Origin: Syntrophomonadaceae bacterium
Lineage (GTDB): Bacteria > Bacillota > Syntrophomonadia > Syntrophomonadales > Syntrophomonadaceae
DNA: 39,078 nucleotides
Direction of reading: 5' to 3'
Assembly: GCA_012520725.1 (NCBI GenBank)
Contig: JAAYNQ010000159.1
Location: 1-39,078, forward strand
Shown piece by piece: positions 30,367-38,194 of this stretch. Position numbers and translations under genes: made by a program. The notes under the pieces were generated by a model. It searched no databases and was not told the DNA's origin. It saw only the letters and a program-made list of their open reading frames with translations. Every line of letters begins with the position of its first letter. Within the stretch, counting starts at the first letter, position 1.

Positions 30367-30720
30367 CTTATGGAAAGAAAAGTTGGGTGGGGTGAAGAGA
30401 TTTTCAACTTTAACCATGAGCAACAAGAACCCAGATGCTTGCCCCCTTGGCTGTCAGGTGGCAGATGCGAAAAAAATCGACGCTGTCCACTGTAACATTA
30501 ATCAGGACCATAGCCGGTTGATGCCGCTACTGGGGTCAGGCAGTGAACATTGGCATTTACTATCCTTGAGGCAGGTTTTGGCTTTGGGCCATAGTGCTTA
30601 AACAATGATCAAAAAATACGGATGGACAATAAGATTATACCAAAGCAGGAAAATCATAGCTTTTAAAGAAATATTATGCATGGATTATGTAAAATAGGCA
30701 TGGTCAAAAGAGGTTGGGCT
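30367..30720 (+). other. Intergenic stretch before the sigma-54 activator gene
   Basis: About 350 bases. A 61-codon frame from ATG 30416 to 30601 exists (SNKNPDACPLGCQVADAKK) but has no SD and no recognised family, so I do not call it. No clear promoter was seen. Confidence 0.45.
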
Positions 30721-32829
30721 ATGAAATTAAGTGAAATCATGAGTACTAAGCTAGCGGTTTTAAAGCCTTCCCATACTATAAAAGAAGCCAGTCAATTGTT
30801 TTTAGACCGGCAAATAGACGGGGCTCCGGTGGTAAACCAAAAGGGAGAACTGTTGGGCCTGGTAACCAAGAGCCATGTATACCGGGCTTTGGCTCAGGAG
30901 CTTAATCCCCACACCCCGGTAACAGCTCTAATGAAAAAGGAGCTGGTTCTGGGGCGGCCTGAGGAGCAGGTGATAGGTCTTCTGGATAGTAAGGTGGGAC
31001 GTCTGCCGGTGGTGGATAAAAATCTGATTATAGGCATGATTACCAGAACCGACCTGGCCCGGGCCTATTTCAATTCCTTCACTGACATGGCCAGCGAATT
31101 CGCTGCCATATTAGATTCTACCCATAATTTGATTGTATCTACTGACAGCAATGGGAAAATAAGTGTATTGAACCGGGCGGCCGAGAAATTTCTGGGTCTA
31201 AAAAGCAGTGCGGTTCGGGGCCGGGATATAGTAGAAATCATTCCCAATAGCGGCCTCAAAGAAATTCTGGATACCGGGGTCAGTAAACCGGTGCAGAAAA
31301 TAGAGCTAAAACAGGGTAGCTTTATTTCCAATCGCACCCCGATCAAAAAAGGCGGTCAGATAATGGGGGCAGTAGCAGTTCTGCAGGATATTTCAGAGTT
31401 GGAGAGCATATCCCGGGAATTGGAAAACGTAAAGGAATTAAATGCTGAGCTGGATGCCATAATAGAATCCTCTCATGATGGTATTTACCTTACCGATGGG
31501 GAGGGGATTACCCTGCGCTTAAATGAAGCTTTCGAAAAGCTTACCGGATTTTCCAGAAATGAACTCTTAGGCCGCAGTGTGGAGGATTTGGTGAAGGAAA
31601 AAGGAGTGGTTTCAGTTTCGGTAAGTACTCTGGTCCTGAAAGAGAAAAAACCTCAGACCATTATACAAAAAACCAGAACCGGGGTCACCGCCTTGAGTAC
31701 CGGGACTCCAGTATTCGATCGCAAGGGGAAAATATTTAGGGTGGTTTCCAATGTAAGAGATATAAGCGAATTGATACGTTTGCAAGAACAATTGGAGCAG
31801 GCCCAGAGTTTGAGCAAGCACTATGAATCCGAGCTGCGCTCCTTGCAAATGAAGTATTCCGGTTCAGAAAAACTAATTGTCAGCTCCCAGAAGATGAAAG
31901 AATTATTAGAGACTGTAATCCGTCTATCCCAGGTTGATTCCACGGTACTGATAAGTGGAGAATCGGGAACTGGAAAAGAGCTTATAGCTGAGACCATACA
32001 TAACAACAGCCCCCGAAAAGATGGCCCTTTCATAAAAATAAATTGTGGTGCTATTTCTCATCACCTGCTGGAGACTGAATTATTCGGCTATGAAGATGGA
32101 GCTTTTACCGGAGCTAAAAAAGGGGGCAAGGCCGGTTATTTTGAGCTGGCCAGTGGGGGTACCCTGCTCCTGGATGAAATAAGCGAGCTGCCCTTTAATC
32201 TACAGGCCAACTTATTACGGGTGGTTCAAGACAAAGAACTTATCCGGGTAGGAGGGGAAAGAACCATACCCGTTGATGTTCGCATTTTGGCGGCAACCAA
32301 CCGGGATATACTGGATATGGTGGAAAAGAATGAATTTCGTCAAGATCTGTATTACCGGCTAAATGTGGTTCCCATTGAGGTTCCACCCCTTAGGGAGAGA
32401 AAGGAAGAGATTCCCCTTTTAATAGCCAACTTTATCAAGCTTTTTAATAAGAAATACCAGATGAACAAAATATGTTCCAACCAGGTTATAGATGTACTGA
32501 TGGAATACGATTGGCCGGGAAATGTAAGAGAGTTGGAAAACCTGGTGGAAAGATTAGTGGTAACCGTAGCCGGCAATACAATTTCGGTAGAACACCTGCC
32601 TTTGCATCTAAAAAACCATATCCCTGGACCCGCCCATCCTCAAATCACTGTTTCAGGAATACTGCCCCTCAAGGAAGCGGTTGAAGTGGTGGAAAAGCAG
32701 ATTTTGGAACAGGCTGCCTCTCGTTATCGCCTGACCCGGGAGATAGCTCAGGAACTTAAAGTAGATCCTTCCACAGTACTCAGGAAAGCAGCTAAATATG
32801 GAATAACTCTGGGTGAGCACAGGATATAA
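30721..32829 (+). CDS. CBS-PAS-PAS sigma-54-dependent transcriptional activator
   Basis: 702-residue enhancer-binding protein that opens sigma-54 promoters using ATP. Domains in order: a CBS pair at the very N-terminus (about 1-115; KLSEIMSTKLAVLKPSHTIKEA), two PAS domains (about 130-240 and 250-365), a coiled-coil linker, the AAA+ domain with Walker A GESGTGKE (413-420) and the sigma-54 contact loop GAFTGA (460-465), then a Fis-type helix-turn-helix (about 665-695; REIAQELKVDPSTVLRKAAKYG). The start is ATG 30721 with AAGAGG; the in-frame ATG 30676 lacks an SD. CBS domains commonly bind adenylates, so an energy or acyl-CoA signal is possible. Its target is probably the -24/-12 promoter at 33148. 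Confidence 0.95.
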   Translation: MKLSEIMSTKLAVLKPSHTIKEASQLFLDRQIDGAPVVNQKGELLGLVTKSHVYRALAQELNPHTPVTALMKKELVLGRPEEQVIGLLDSKVGRLPVVDKNLIIGMITRTDLARAYFNSFTDMASEFAAILDSTHNLIVSTDSNGKISVLNRAAEKFLGLKSSAVRGRDIVEIIPNSGLKEILDTGVSKPVQKIELKQGSFISNRTPIKKGGQIMGAVAVLQDISELESISRELENVKELNAELDAIIESSHDGIYLTDGEGITLRLNEAFEKLTGFSRNELLGRSVEDLVKEKGVVSVSVSTLVLKEKKPQTIIQKTRTGVTALSTGTPVFDRKGKIFRVVSNVRDISELIRLQEQLEQAQSLSKHYESELRSLQMKYSGSEKLIVSSQKMKELLETVIRLSQVDSTVLISGESGTGKELIAETIHNNSPRKDGPFIKINCGAISHHLLETELFGYEDGAFTGAKKGGKAGYFELASGGTLLLDEISELPFNLQANLLRVVQDKELIRVGGERTIPVDVRILAATNRDILDMVEKNEFRQDLYYRLNVVPIEVPPLRERKEEIPLLIANFIKLFNKKYQMNKICSNQVIDVLMEYDWPGNVRELENLVERLVVTVAGNTISVEHLPLHLKNHIPGPAHPQITVSGILPLKEAVEVVEKQILEQAASRYRLTREIAQELKVDPSTVLRKAAKYGITLGEHRI

Positions 32830-32845
32830 GCTTCTCCTTTGACCA

Positions 32846-32879
32846 AATTCTTAAGCGTTAATCTTAAGGCTTAAGAATT
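32846..32879 (+). repeat. Inverted repeat 1 after the activator gene
   Basis: Perfect 11-bp arms AATTCTTAAGC / GCTTAAGAATT with a 12-base loop that contains a third CTTAAG. No T run follows, so it may be a protein site as well as a hairpin. Confidence 0.6.
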
Positions 32880-32887
32880 ACTTGCAC

Positions 32888-32940
32888 TTTTGCAGTCCTT
32901 GCTTATTTATACTGCTGATGTTGAATAAGCCGCTGCAAAA
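32888..32940 (+). repeat. Inverted repeat 2 (nested)
   Basis: Outer arms TTTTGCAG / CTGCAAAA (32888-32895, 32933-32940) enclose inner arms GCTTATT / AATAAGC (32901-32907, 32924-32930). Confidence 0.55.
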
Positions 32941-32956
32941 TTGCCCTACCCCAATG

Positions 32957-32980
32957 CTGGCTTTATGCCAGGCGGGTTTT
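32957..32980 (+). terminator. Inverted repeat 3, terminator-like
   Basis: CTGGC-TTTAT-GCCAG followed by GCGGGTTTT. A short stem with a spaced T run; a candidate end of the activator transcript. Confidence 0.4.
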
Positions 32981-33021
32981 AACAAAGCCTAAATATAGCT
33001 CTATATCAATTGCCGCCAAAG

Positions 33022-33066
33022 TAAGAGCGCAAATTTGCAGTACAGTCCTGCGGATTTGCGCTCTTA
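33022..33066 (+). repeat. Inverted repeat 4, possible activator site or terminator
   Basis: Perfect 13-bp arms TAAGAGCGCAAAT / ATTTGCGCTCTTA with a 19-base centre (which itself pairs GCAG with CTGC), followed by GCTTTTGTTT. It lies 82 bases upstream of the -24/-12 promoter, a normal distance for an enhancer site. Confidence 0.6.
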
Positions 33067-33147
33067 GCTTTTGTTTCTCACTGCCAAAATGCCGGGTTCC
33101 CAAAAAGCAAAATGAGCTCATGGCCTGTGTTTGGGCCTTTACAGGAA

Positions 33148-33163
33148 TGGCATGGATTTTGCG
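33148..33163 (+). promoter_or_regulatory. Sigma-54 (-24/-12) promoter of the thiolase-DUF35 operon
   Basis: TGGCATGGATTTTGCG matches the consensus TGGCACG-N4-TTGC with the invariant GG and GC exactly 10 bases apart. Transcription should start near 33174, about 120 bases before the thiolase ATG. The sigma-54 activator gene lies immediately upstream. Confidence 0.85.
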
Positions 33164-33296
33164 TTAGTATCAGGTGAAGACCTCTTCCAGACCAAAGATG
33201 ATGAGAGATATTCGCCAGTTGTGAAAGGCTATTGTTTTTATTGAACAATACCGGCTCAGCTAAACCTGGAGCCATTTTGGATAGGAGGAGTTAAAT

Positions 33297-34472
33297 ATGA
33301 GAAGAGTAGTAGTGCTGGGTGGGGGGCATAGCAAGTTTTGCTATAACTCGCCCAAAACATCGGTAGAAATGTTATCTGAAGTAGCGATAGATGCCATTAG
33401 GGAATCAAATTTGAGTGTAAAAGACATTCAGGCGGTAAATGTGGGCAATGTTCTGGGGGATTTCTCCGAGGGGCAGGGTATGGTACAGTCCTTTTTTGCC
33501 AATGACATTGGCTGTTTTAACGTTCCGGCGACCAGGTTTGAAGGGGCTTGTGCCTCAGGGAGTTTGGCTTTGCGAGATGCTTTTATATGGATAGCTTCCG
33601 GGTATTATGATATTGTCCTGGTAGGTGGAGTGGAAAGGGCAACTGCCATGGGAACTGCTCTAGCTACCAGAACCTTTGCCATGTTCGGAGACAGCCGTTA
33701 TGAATTCCCCAGCGGCTTTACCTTTCCTGCTGCTTTTGGCCTACTGGCCCACCTTTATGCCTACCGCTACGGAATACCTCTGGAGCGGCTCAAAGAACAG
33801 ATGGCAGCAGTTTCAGTCCAATCTCATGAATATGCTATGAAAAACCCTAATGCCCAAATTCAAAAAAAGTTGACTAAAGAAGAGGTCTTAAACAGCTTTA
33901 TGGTTACCACTCCCATACAACTGCATGACGCCTGTCCTTTTTCAGATGGGGCAGCTGCAGTAGTCCTGGCTTCGGAAGAGGTAGCCAGGAAGCTTACCGA
34001 TCAGCCGGTATATATTTGCGGAATTGGGCAGACTTCCTCCGGCAAGCTGAGTTCCCAATACCGGTATTTACCCCGGCTGAGAGCCCGGGAGTTGGCTGCA
34101 GAGCAGGCTTACCGGATGGCTGGCCTTACCCCCAAGGATATTGATGTCTGTGAACTCCATGATTGTTTCAGCATTGCCGCTATTATTGCTGCCGAGGGAC
34201 TGGGTTTATTTGAATTTGGTACCGCAGGAGAAGCCTGGGAGAGAGGTGAAACCAGGCTGGAAGGCAGGATACCCATCAATATCTCGGGTGGATTAAAAGC
34301 CAAAGGACATCCTATTGGAGCAACCGGAGTATCACAGGCCTATGAATTAACCCGCCAGTTACGGGGGCAGTTGGCTGAACAGGGAAGACAGGTGGATGGA
34401 GCCAGGTACGGGCTTATGGACACTCTGGGCGGTGATGGAGTCTTGGTTAGTATTATCTTTTCCAATCAATAA
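33297..34472 (+). CDS. Thiolase-family acyl-CoA acetyltransferase (SCP2 type)
   Basis: 391-residue thiolase-fold enzyme, cytoplasmic. Nucleophile Cys85 is in EGACASGSLAL. His288 is in LHDCFS and His338 in GGLKAKGHPIGATG. The second cysteine of classical thiolases is absent: the C-terminal motif reads TLGGDGVLV, as in SCP2-type thiolases. It makes or cleaves a beta-ketoacyl-CoA; the chain length is unknown. A DUF35 gene follows after 14 bases, a pairing known for thiolases that work as complexes with DUF35. SD AGGAGGAG precedes ATG 33297. Expression is probably sigma-54 dependent. Confidence 0.93.
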   Translation: MRRVVVLGGGHSKFCYNSPKTSVEMLSEVAIDAIRESNLSVKDIQAVNVGNVLGDFSEGQGMVQSFFANDIGCFNVPATRFEGACASGSLALRDAFIWIASGYYDIVLVGGVERATAMGTALATRTFAMFGDSRYEFPSGFTFPAAFGLLAHLYAYRYGIPLERLKEQMAAVSVQSHEYAMKNPNAQIQKKLTKEEVLNSFMVTTPIQLHDACPFSDGAAAVVLASEEVARKLTDQPVYICGIGQTSSGKLSSQYRYLPRLRARELAAEQAYRMAGLTPKDIDVCELHDCFSIAAIIAAEGLGLFEFGTAGEAWERGETRLEGRIPINISGGLKAKGHPIGATGVSQAYELTRQLRGQLAEQGRQVDGARYGLMDTLGGDGVLVSIIFSNQ

Positions 34473-34486
34473 AGGAGGGATTATTT

Positions 34487-34900
34487 ATGGAATACAAAAT
34501 CCTTTTCAAGGATTATAATAAAGCACTCAAGCAAAACAGACTATTAGGCTTGAAGTGTGCCGACTGCGGGAAGGTAACCTGTCCTCCCATGATGGTCTGC
34601 CAGGAGTGTGCCGGAACCAATCTTCAGATACAGGAATTAAGCGGGAAGGGGAAAGTGGTTAGCTTCACCACTTCATATCTTAATTCCGAAGGACGGGAAA
34701 ATGAATTGCCTATTACCATAGTACTGGTTGAACTGGAGGAGGGCCCCTGGATTATGGGTAATTTGGACGATGTTGACCCTAAACGGGTAAATATGAATTT
34801 GATAGGTACCAGAGTCAGCTTAGGGCACAGAGTATTTCCGGGTGACAAGTATTCCGCCGGGAATGCTGCCCGTCCGGTTTTCAGCTATGCAGAAATATAA
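34487..34900 (+). CDS. DUF35 zinc-ribbon/OB-fold protein
   Basis: 137 residues. N-terminal helix, zinc ribbon with C24-AD-C27 and C38-QE-C41, then an OB-fold (GKGKVVSFTTSYL, ITIVLVELEEGPWIMGNL). DUF35 proteins act as partners of thiolases and related condensing enzymes, and can bind CoA or its substrates or scaffold them. The position directly after an SCP2-type thiolase gene is the standard arrangement. AAAGGAGGG is its SD. Its stop codon lies within the first copy of a 23-bp direct repeat. Confidence 0.93.
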   Translation: MEYKILFKDYNKALKQNRLLGLKCADCGKVTCPPMMVCQECAGTNLQIQELSGKGKVVSFTTSYLNSEGRENELPITIVLVELEEGPWIMGNLDDVDPKRVNMNLIGTRVSLGHRVFPGDKYSAGNAARPVFSYAEI

Positions 34901-36637: not shown

Positions 36638-38194
36638 TTATTTAAGCACTTTGGCTTCCACCTTATTGGCTTCATCATTGGCATGATGGAGCCTATTTAT
36701 GGCGGGGCCTTCCACAATATCACCCTCATATGAGAATCTGGAACCATGGCAAGGGCAGTCCCAGGTCTTTTCAGCACTGTTCCAGGCCAGCTCACAGCCC
36801 AGATGGGTACAGGTAGTATCCACCATATGGACCTGTCCGTCCTCATCTTTGTAAACTCCGATACGATTGCCTTCATAGTTGACAACCTGCGCTTCCCCAT
36901 TTTTCAACTCCCTGGGAGGGGAAAGCTGACCTAGTTTTCTGGATAGCAGATCTTTAGCCACATTGGCATTCTGAATGATGAAGGTTTTCAGACTCGACCC
37001 AGTGCTAAACAACCTGGAGGGGCTATATACTGTGGCCCAGGGGTTATCTCCCTTGAGTATCAAATCAGATAAAATCATGGCAGCTGCCGTTCCATTAGTC
37101 ATGCCCCATTTACCAAATCCAGTGGCTACGTAAATGTGCGGGCTCCGGGGAGTCAGGTGGCCAACATAGGGAAGCTGATCAATGGTCATGCAGTCCTGAG
37201 TAGACCATCTATAAAGTATTTCTCGAAGGGAGAAGTTTTCTTGAGCAAATTTTATCAATTGCTCATAGTGAAGATTGGTATCTTCACCATGGCCTGTTTT
37301 GTGGTGTTCACCCCCGAATAAAACCAATTCACCATCTTCCATAGGCTGGGAACGCAGTGAACGAGTGGGGTCTTCAGCACTTATAAACATTCCGTCAGGA
37401 AACTTTTCTTCGATTTGTGCGGCTACCACATAGGATTTGTCTTGATACATCTTGCTAAAATACAGACCGCCCCCATCAAAAAATGGAAAATGGGTAGCAA
37501 TAATAACCTTGGAGGCATATACCTTATGACCGTTTCTGCTGGCTATAACCGGTTTACCGGCCTGATCGATGTCAAGAGCTTCGGTATTTTCAAATATCAA
37601 AGCCCCCTTATCACTGCACTCCCTGGCCAGAGCCTTCAAATATTTTAAAGGATGAAACTGAGCCTGCTCATCAAAGCGCAGGGCGGCCTTAACCTCAAAA
37701 GGAAGAGGAACAGTATCCAGAAAACTGGCTTTAATCCCCAGGTCTTTGGCATCTTCGCTTTCATCAGCCAGGTCTTGAACATATTTGTCACTTTGGGTGT
37801 AGATATAGGCCGGGCACCATTTGAAATCACATGGGATTTGTTTTTCACCCACCGTTTTGGCTATTTGTCTAATAGCGTTTTGATTAGCTTCAGCATATTG
37901 CATTGCCAATTCACGGCCTATTTGTTTTTTCAGTGTGGAATATATGATACCATGCTGGGAAGTGATTTTTGCCGTGGTATGTCCGGTAGTACCGTTTAAT
38001 ATCCGGTCTGCTTCGATAACAGCTACCTGCAAGCCTGCTTGATTGAGCATATATGCACTACTGATACCAACAATACCTCCGCCTATAATTGCCACATCCA
38101 CAGTGGTATCTTCATTAAGCTGGGGATAATCGGTGCTATCGGTGGAAGCAATCCAATATGGATTGGGCTCTCCAGTAATTTCTAACTTCATCAT
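36638..38194 (-). CDS. FAD-dependent oxidoreductase with C-terminal Rieske domain
   Basis: 518 residues. An N-terminal DAO-type FAD domain has GGGIVG (38-43) and HTTAKITSQHG, and its C-terminal FAD segment is YVATGFGKWGMTNG. A C-terminal Rieske 2Fe-2S domain has C462-T-H464 and C480-PC-H483, with the GSRFSYEGDIVEGPA loop. It matches the YhfW group of FAD-Rieske proteins. The substrate (an amine or amino acid) is unknown. No signal peptide. Start ATG 38194 (a second ATG follows at once). A promoter is likely at 38217-38245. Confidence 0.92.
   Translation of the reverse strand: MMKLEITGEPNPYWIASTDSTDYPQLNEDTTVDVAIIGGGIVGISSAYMLNQAGLQVAVIEADRILNGTTGHTTAKITSQHGIIYSTLKKQIGRELAMQYAEANQNAIRQIAKTVGEKQIPCDFKWCPAYIYTQSDKYVQDLADESEDAKDLGIKASFLDTVPLPFEVKAALRFDEQAQFHPLKYLKALARECSDKGALIFENTEALDIDQAGKPVIASRNGHKVYASKVIIATHFPFFDGGGLYFSKMYQDKSYVVAAQIEEKFPDGMFISAEDPTRSLRSQPMEDGELVLFGGEHHKTGHGEDTNLHYEQLIKFAQENFSLREILYRWSTQDCMTIDQLPYVGHLTPRSPHIYVATGFGKWGMTNGTAAAMILSDLILKGDNPWATVYSPSRLFSTGSSLKTFIIQNANVAKDLLSRKLGQLSPPRELKNGEAQVVNYEGNRIGVYKDEDGQVHMVDTTCTHLGCELAWNSAEKTWDCPCHGSRFSYEGDIVEGPAINRLHHANDEANKVEAKVLK

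Follow-up and report, generated by a model that had tools for sequence, protein, structure and literature searches.

In Clostridiales, PAS-bearing sigma-54 activators (EBPs) such as CrbR and XcaA, among others, control acyl-CoA and thiolase genes through several UAS, according to the accessible part of PMC6615313. The same part of that text places UAS mostly 100 to 250 bp upstream, counts CBS among the EBP sensor domains, and describes the sites of CrbR and 14 other groups as TGT/ACA inverted repeats 10 to 12 bp apart; Syntrophomonas is not named in it. More broadly, lipid-metabolism genes are reported to be enriched in the sigma-54 regulons of Clostridia (PMC12316311). For syntrophic fatty-acid degraders, in which the regulation of metabolism is described as little known, a proteome study of S. 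wolfei found the PAS/sigma-54 regulator Swol_0456 only in butyrate-grown cells (PMC4324140), and this passing mention was the only one of sigma-54 that we found in the Syntrophomonas literature. A search of the main texts of openly accessible papers yielded no published description of the regulator, sites or operon reported here. Sigma-54 control of acyl-CoA metabolism is thus already known in Clostridia, and the regulon described below appears, from its sequence, to be new.

The locus lies within a 39,078-nucleotide stretch of Syntrophomonadaceae DNA, referred to as the window. It comes from a bacterium of the Syntrophomonas type, which degrades fatty acids in dependence on a partner, and the promoter described here very probably switches on an acyl-CoA-cleaving enzyme. 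A gap at 32830-33296 separates an activator gene from a thiolase-DUF35 gene pair, and the features of the locus are as follows.

30721..32829, plus strand: sigma-54 activator (EBP) made up of a CBS pair, a PAS pair, an AAA+ domain bearing GAFTGA, an AAA lid and HTH_50 (Pfam, translations, ortholog alignment)
32884..32893, no strand: predicted enhancer site 1, GCACTTTTGC (PWM 13.5; offset -264 from the promoter)
32935..32944, no strand: predicted enhancer site 2, GCAAAATTGC (PWM 14.5; offset -213)
33022..33066, no strand: terminator-like hairpin, its arms being sites 3 and 4 (fold z = -4.86; T-rich tail)
33029..33038, no strand: predicted enhancer site 3, GCAAATTTGC (PWM 13.5; offset -119)
33050..33059, no strand: predicted enhancer site 4, GCGGATTTGC (PWM 9.7; offset -98)
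33083..33092, no strand: predicted enhancer site 5, GCCAAAATGC (PWM 14.3; offset -65)
33148..33163, plus strand: predicted sigma-54 promoter, TGGCATGGATTTTGCG (consensus match, genome enrichment, family-wide occurrence)
33174 (about), plus strand: predicted transcription start, some 12 nt past the GC of the -12 element by established sigma-54 promoter geometry
33297..34472, plus strand: SCP2/archaeal-type thiolase (Pfam Thiolase_C_1/Thiolase_N; best PDB match the 6ESQ acetoacetyl-CoA thiolase chain, E = 4.6e-72)
34487..34900, plus strand: DUF35/OB_ChsH2_C protein with zinc ribbon, the thiolase partner (Pfam; adjoins the thiolase in all mapped relatives)

The activator reading frame was listed as 30676-32829, and its true start is probably 30721, because the orthologues begin with MKLSEIMST. 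In the alignment the protein was 65 to 87% identical to six orthologues, and its closest relatives sit in Syntrophomonas and Syntrophomonadaceae assemblies. It carries a Sigma54_activat AAA+ domain (PF00158, E = 2e-68), the motifs GESGTGKE (Walker A) and GAFTGA, which are invariant in seven orthologues, and a C-terminal HTH_50 (E = 3.3e-8). Its best NCBIfam match was the model of the PrdR-type PAS sigma-54 regulators (NF041552; best stretch residues 251-708), and the score of 517 bits falls short of the 795-bit cut-off for PrdR membership. Unlike in PrdR, whose target is proline reductase, an N-terminal CBS pair is present that the model does not cover. AtoC, which serves in acetoacetate/short-chain fatty-acid control, likewise activates acyl-CoA and thiolase genes through sigma-54 (NCBIfam match to the window EBP, 327 bits); AtoC is a two-component response regulator, whereas the window EBP is of CBS-PAS-PAS type, and Pfam found no receiver domain in it.

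The putative promoter matches the consensus TGGCAYGNNNNTTGCW at 15 of 16 positions, with GG at 33149-33150, GC at 33161-33162 and 10 bases between them (GG-N10-GC); the sole mismatch is the final G, at which the -12 element ends in place of A/T. The preliminary description had reported a near-consensus site with exactly this spacing, located after an activator gene and before thiolase-DUF35 genes, and both points were borne out, the second by Pfam annotation of the neighbours. No other sigma-54 site with at most one mismatch occurs in the window. Because about 0.57 such sites are expected by chance per 39-kb window (mononucleotide shuffling), this lone match is weak evidence by itself, and the case for the promoter is carried by the genome. 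We found a single sigma-54 gene (rpoN; PF04552, E = 7.9e-65), 18 full-score EBPs, and 15 sites of the form TGGCAYGN4TTGCD, where the reversed pattern occurred once. Among 34 loci holding relatives of the window EBP, 24 had a site with at most one mismatch no more than 600 bp downstream of the EBP gene, and reversed-motif and opposite-strand controls over the same loci gave 0. Together with a gene order kept across genera, this genome-wide context convincingly supports the reading of 33148-33163 as a real sigma-54 promoter. The earlier claim that the regulator-target link is unusually explicit was overstated: in this family, EBP genes are as a rule closely followed by a sigma-54 promoter. A similarity search of the gap against phage records gave no match.

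The genes behind the other 14 strong sites of the genome include those for a thiolase, CoA-transferase-type proteins (the assignment at L004 comes from reading the sequence, with no Pfam match), a crotonase and an Etf gene pair, and further sites precede genes for an iron alcohol dehydrogenase, an iron-sulphur protein, a metallo-beta-lactamase-fold protein and an Hsp20-like protein. Taken together, the 15 sites (L001-L015, genome G000) read as a broad acyl-CoA/energy regulon. Two of them (L002:1613-2173 and, on the reverse strand, L012, 185 aa) precede similar proteins of 185 to 186 aa, the L002 copy of which gave no match in Pfam; in both places a small protein comes next, and these two also resemble each other.

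Upstream of the promoter, the gap contains palindromes of the form GC-N6-GC with A/T-rich centres. Such palindromes numbered 27 in the gaps of the loci versus 4.3 +/- 2.0 in 2000 shuffles (maximum 15), a count that is partly post hoc as the form was first spotted by eye. For this reason, a PWM trained on other genera was used as a held-out test. Trained on four loci only, all outside the genus-level group of the window (consensus AAGGCAAAATTGCCTT), it identified five sites and no more in the gap of the window, and 0 of 300 shuffles reached five at thresholds of 6 to 8. At L066, L067, L080 and L125 alike, three or four of the window's five offsets are found again to within 2 bp, and L125, which lay outside the training set, has three sites at the same offsets. 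The agreement of offsets had P values from <1e-5 to 0.002, assuming random uniform placement among loci that in fact share ancestry. The spacings between sites, 51, 94, 21 and 33 bp, correspond to 4.9, 9.0, 2.0 and 3.1 helical turns and are thus near whole turns. Comparison of the intergenic region among relatives, proposed earlier as a check, found gene order, promoter and enhancer-site spacing largely kept, and the region suggested for footprinting (32840-33140) contains all five predicted sites. Upstream of the activator, no candidate autoregulatory site scored above 4 with the PWM.

By PWM and shared offsets, the locus thus has several conserved predicted UAS upstream of its promoter, and it resembles the systems in the accessible part of PMC6615313 in having an EBP gene that adjoins the target, several UAS before a sigma-54 promoter, acyl-CoA/thiolase targets and PAS sensors. 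It differs in the sites themselves: the array follows AAGGCAAAATTGCCTT with its GC-N6-GC core and not the CrbR-type TGT-N10-12-ACA, although it may equal one of the 15 motifs called distinct in that source, the comparison being with its text only. The target differs too, as an SCP2-type thiolase with DUF35 probably serves catabolism, in contrast to the butyrate synthesis of CrbR.

The array follows a particular type of activator. Arrays were found after orthologues with the helix D-P/S-STVLRKAAKYGI, at L125 (71% identical, with a reading frame that breaks before the helix) and, in part, at L110. Paralogues with helices of the DASTIV or NASTIV type have the promoter but no array; no array was found after any other EBP of the window's genome, and its other 14 strong promoters have one site each at most. 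An exception is L065 (G002; activator fragment 60% identical), which has the operon but no array, and the promoter of L066 has two mismatches. This co-occurrence with the HTH type ties the array to the activator type and, with conservation of the five sites, supports the earlier proposal that the adjacent activator controls the promoter. At L107, L109, L124 and L126, single palindromes with TTGCA..TGCAA-like flanks lie downstream of paralogous EBPs, hinting that paralogues may read a common core with different flanks.

We regard the locus, with a probability of roughly 0.85, as a one-component sigma-54 switch made up of activator, five-site array, promoter and thiolase-DUF35 pair. In such a switch, oligomers of the CBS-PAS-PAS-AAA+-HTH protein would bind the five palindromes with their GC-N6-GC core and A/T-rich centre, which lie 65 to 264 bp upstream of the promoter on roughly one helix face. 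The CBS/PAS sensor would be switched by an internal metabolite, which we infer to be an acyl-CoA, CoA or an adenylate. Upon DNA looping, the GAFTGA-containing AAA+ domain would hydrolyse ATP and open the sigma-54 promoter, from which thiolase and DUF35 would then be transcribed.

One could also suppose that the promoter is real and is driven by another of the 18 EBPs, the palindromes serving a different regulator. Cross-talk of this kind is possible because several of the genome's EBPs lack a site of their own in the vicinity, and on contig C98 a related palindrome (CTTGCAATATTGCAAG) precedes another sigma-54 promoter with no EBP seen beside it. We consider this unlikely, given that the array accompanies the orthologues of this activator across genera, is absent at paralogues with other recognition helices, and follows no other EBP of the genome. 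Even less probable is that the promoter is a chance match, with transcription of the thiolase-DUF35 pair starting at a sigma-A promoter or running on from the activator gene. The off-consensus last base and the number of sites expected per window speak for chance, but not the enrichment in the genome or the 24 of 34 loci with a downstream site against none in the controls; moreover, no sigma-70-like site was seen on the plus strand of the gap, and a hairpin stands between the genes.

That hairpin bears on a further alternative, in which the palindromes are mere terminator or repeat structure and the activator works without specific DNA sites. Sites 3 and 4 do form a strong hairpin, and because it folds well and has a T-rich tail it may also end the activator transcript. 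It is strong in L064 and L067 as well, but weak or absent in L068, L080 and L066, where the paired sites persist at the same offsets, and sites 1, 2 and 5 lie outside it. Since the hairpin is unconserved while both sites are kept, we rejected a plain terminator as the whole explanation; across these loci the conserved element appears to be the sites and not the hairpin. We hold the terminator alternative to be very unlikely, if marginally less so than a chance match. As the regulator, five predicted sites, promoter and target of the proposed switch are placed with single-base precision and backed by comparison between genera, the model is testable by a single EMSA or reporter assay.

The thiolase has a Thiolase_C_1 domain and is adjoined by an OB_ChsH2_C protein, as expected of an SCP2/archaeal-type thiolase with a DUF35 partner. 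The same type of thiolase is paired with a DUF35/OB protein in the archaeal acetoacetyl-CoA thiolase/HMG-CoA synthase/DUF35 complex (6ESQ) and in the benzoylsuccinyl-CoA thiolase BbsAB (7PXP). Unlike the former, the window locus has no HMG-CoA synthase gene that we could see, and, unlike BbsAB, its proteins score far below the cut-offs of the BbsB and BbsA models. Several genera share the order EBP, sigma-54 promoter, thiolase, DUF35. In some relatives, the promoter is separated from the thiolase gene by genes for an enoyl-CoA hydratase, an acyl-CoA dehydrogenase and a short-chain dehydrogenase, and a CoA-transferase gene comes after; of this fuller beta-oxidation operon the window locus keeps thiolase-DUF35. 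The relatives' short-chain dehydrogenase matches HSD10-type 3-hydroxyacyl-CoA dehydrogenases in PDB (4XGN, 1U7T), and the nearest matches to their acyl-CoA dehydrogenase are 2PG0 and long-chain enzymes. The first clear gene to follow the promoter is that of the thiolase both in the window and in L064, its nearest relative, whose thiolase is 92% identical; downstream, L064 has a CoA-transferase-like and an acetoacetate-CoA ligase-like gene. HSD10 acts on 2-methyl-3-hydroxybutyryl-CoA. The pathway is likely the breakdown of a particular acyl-CoA and, because the relatives' operon has an HSD10-type dehydrogenase, possibly of a 2-methyl-branched one, which is a reasonable guess and no more.

A wider picture, which we offer tentatively and would not bet on, is that the activator belongs to a subfamily of EBPs not described before, in which CBS and PAS sensors would go together with a GC-N6-GC enhancer code. 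Its paralogues, differing in recognition helix and site flanks, might each control a separate acyl-CoA operon in Syntrophomonadaceae, which would place a large part of syntrophic beta-oxidation (thiolases, CoA-transferases, crotonase, Etf) under sigma-54; the window EBP would govern the HSD10-type pathway, plausibly for 2-methyl-branched acyl-CoA. The method used here extends to such paralogous regulator-operon pairs.

A pattern of site pairs spaced by 21 bp led to contig C98 of G000 (L189:1100-2350, minus strand; L191-L195), where a putative sigma-54 promoter, TGGCATATTATTTGCT, lies between an RNase P RNA gene (Rfam RF00010), which it closely follows, and an acetyl-CoA acetyltransferase gene. 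Upstream of it are CTTGCAATATTGCAAG-like palindromes, which are present, along with an identical promoter, in each of the five genus-level genomes. We did not adopt this thiolase promoter as a second target of the window EBP, the flanks being different (CTTGCAATATTGCAAG-like) in five of five of these genomes; because of this difference from the window array, a paralogous regulator is as likely. Elsewhere in the window, positions 36638-38194 on the minus strand encode an FAD-dependent oxidoreductase (DAO) that carries a fused Rieske domain at its C-terminus.
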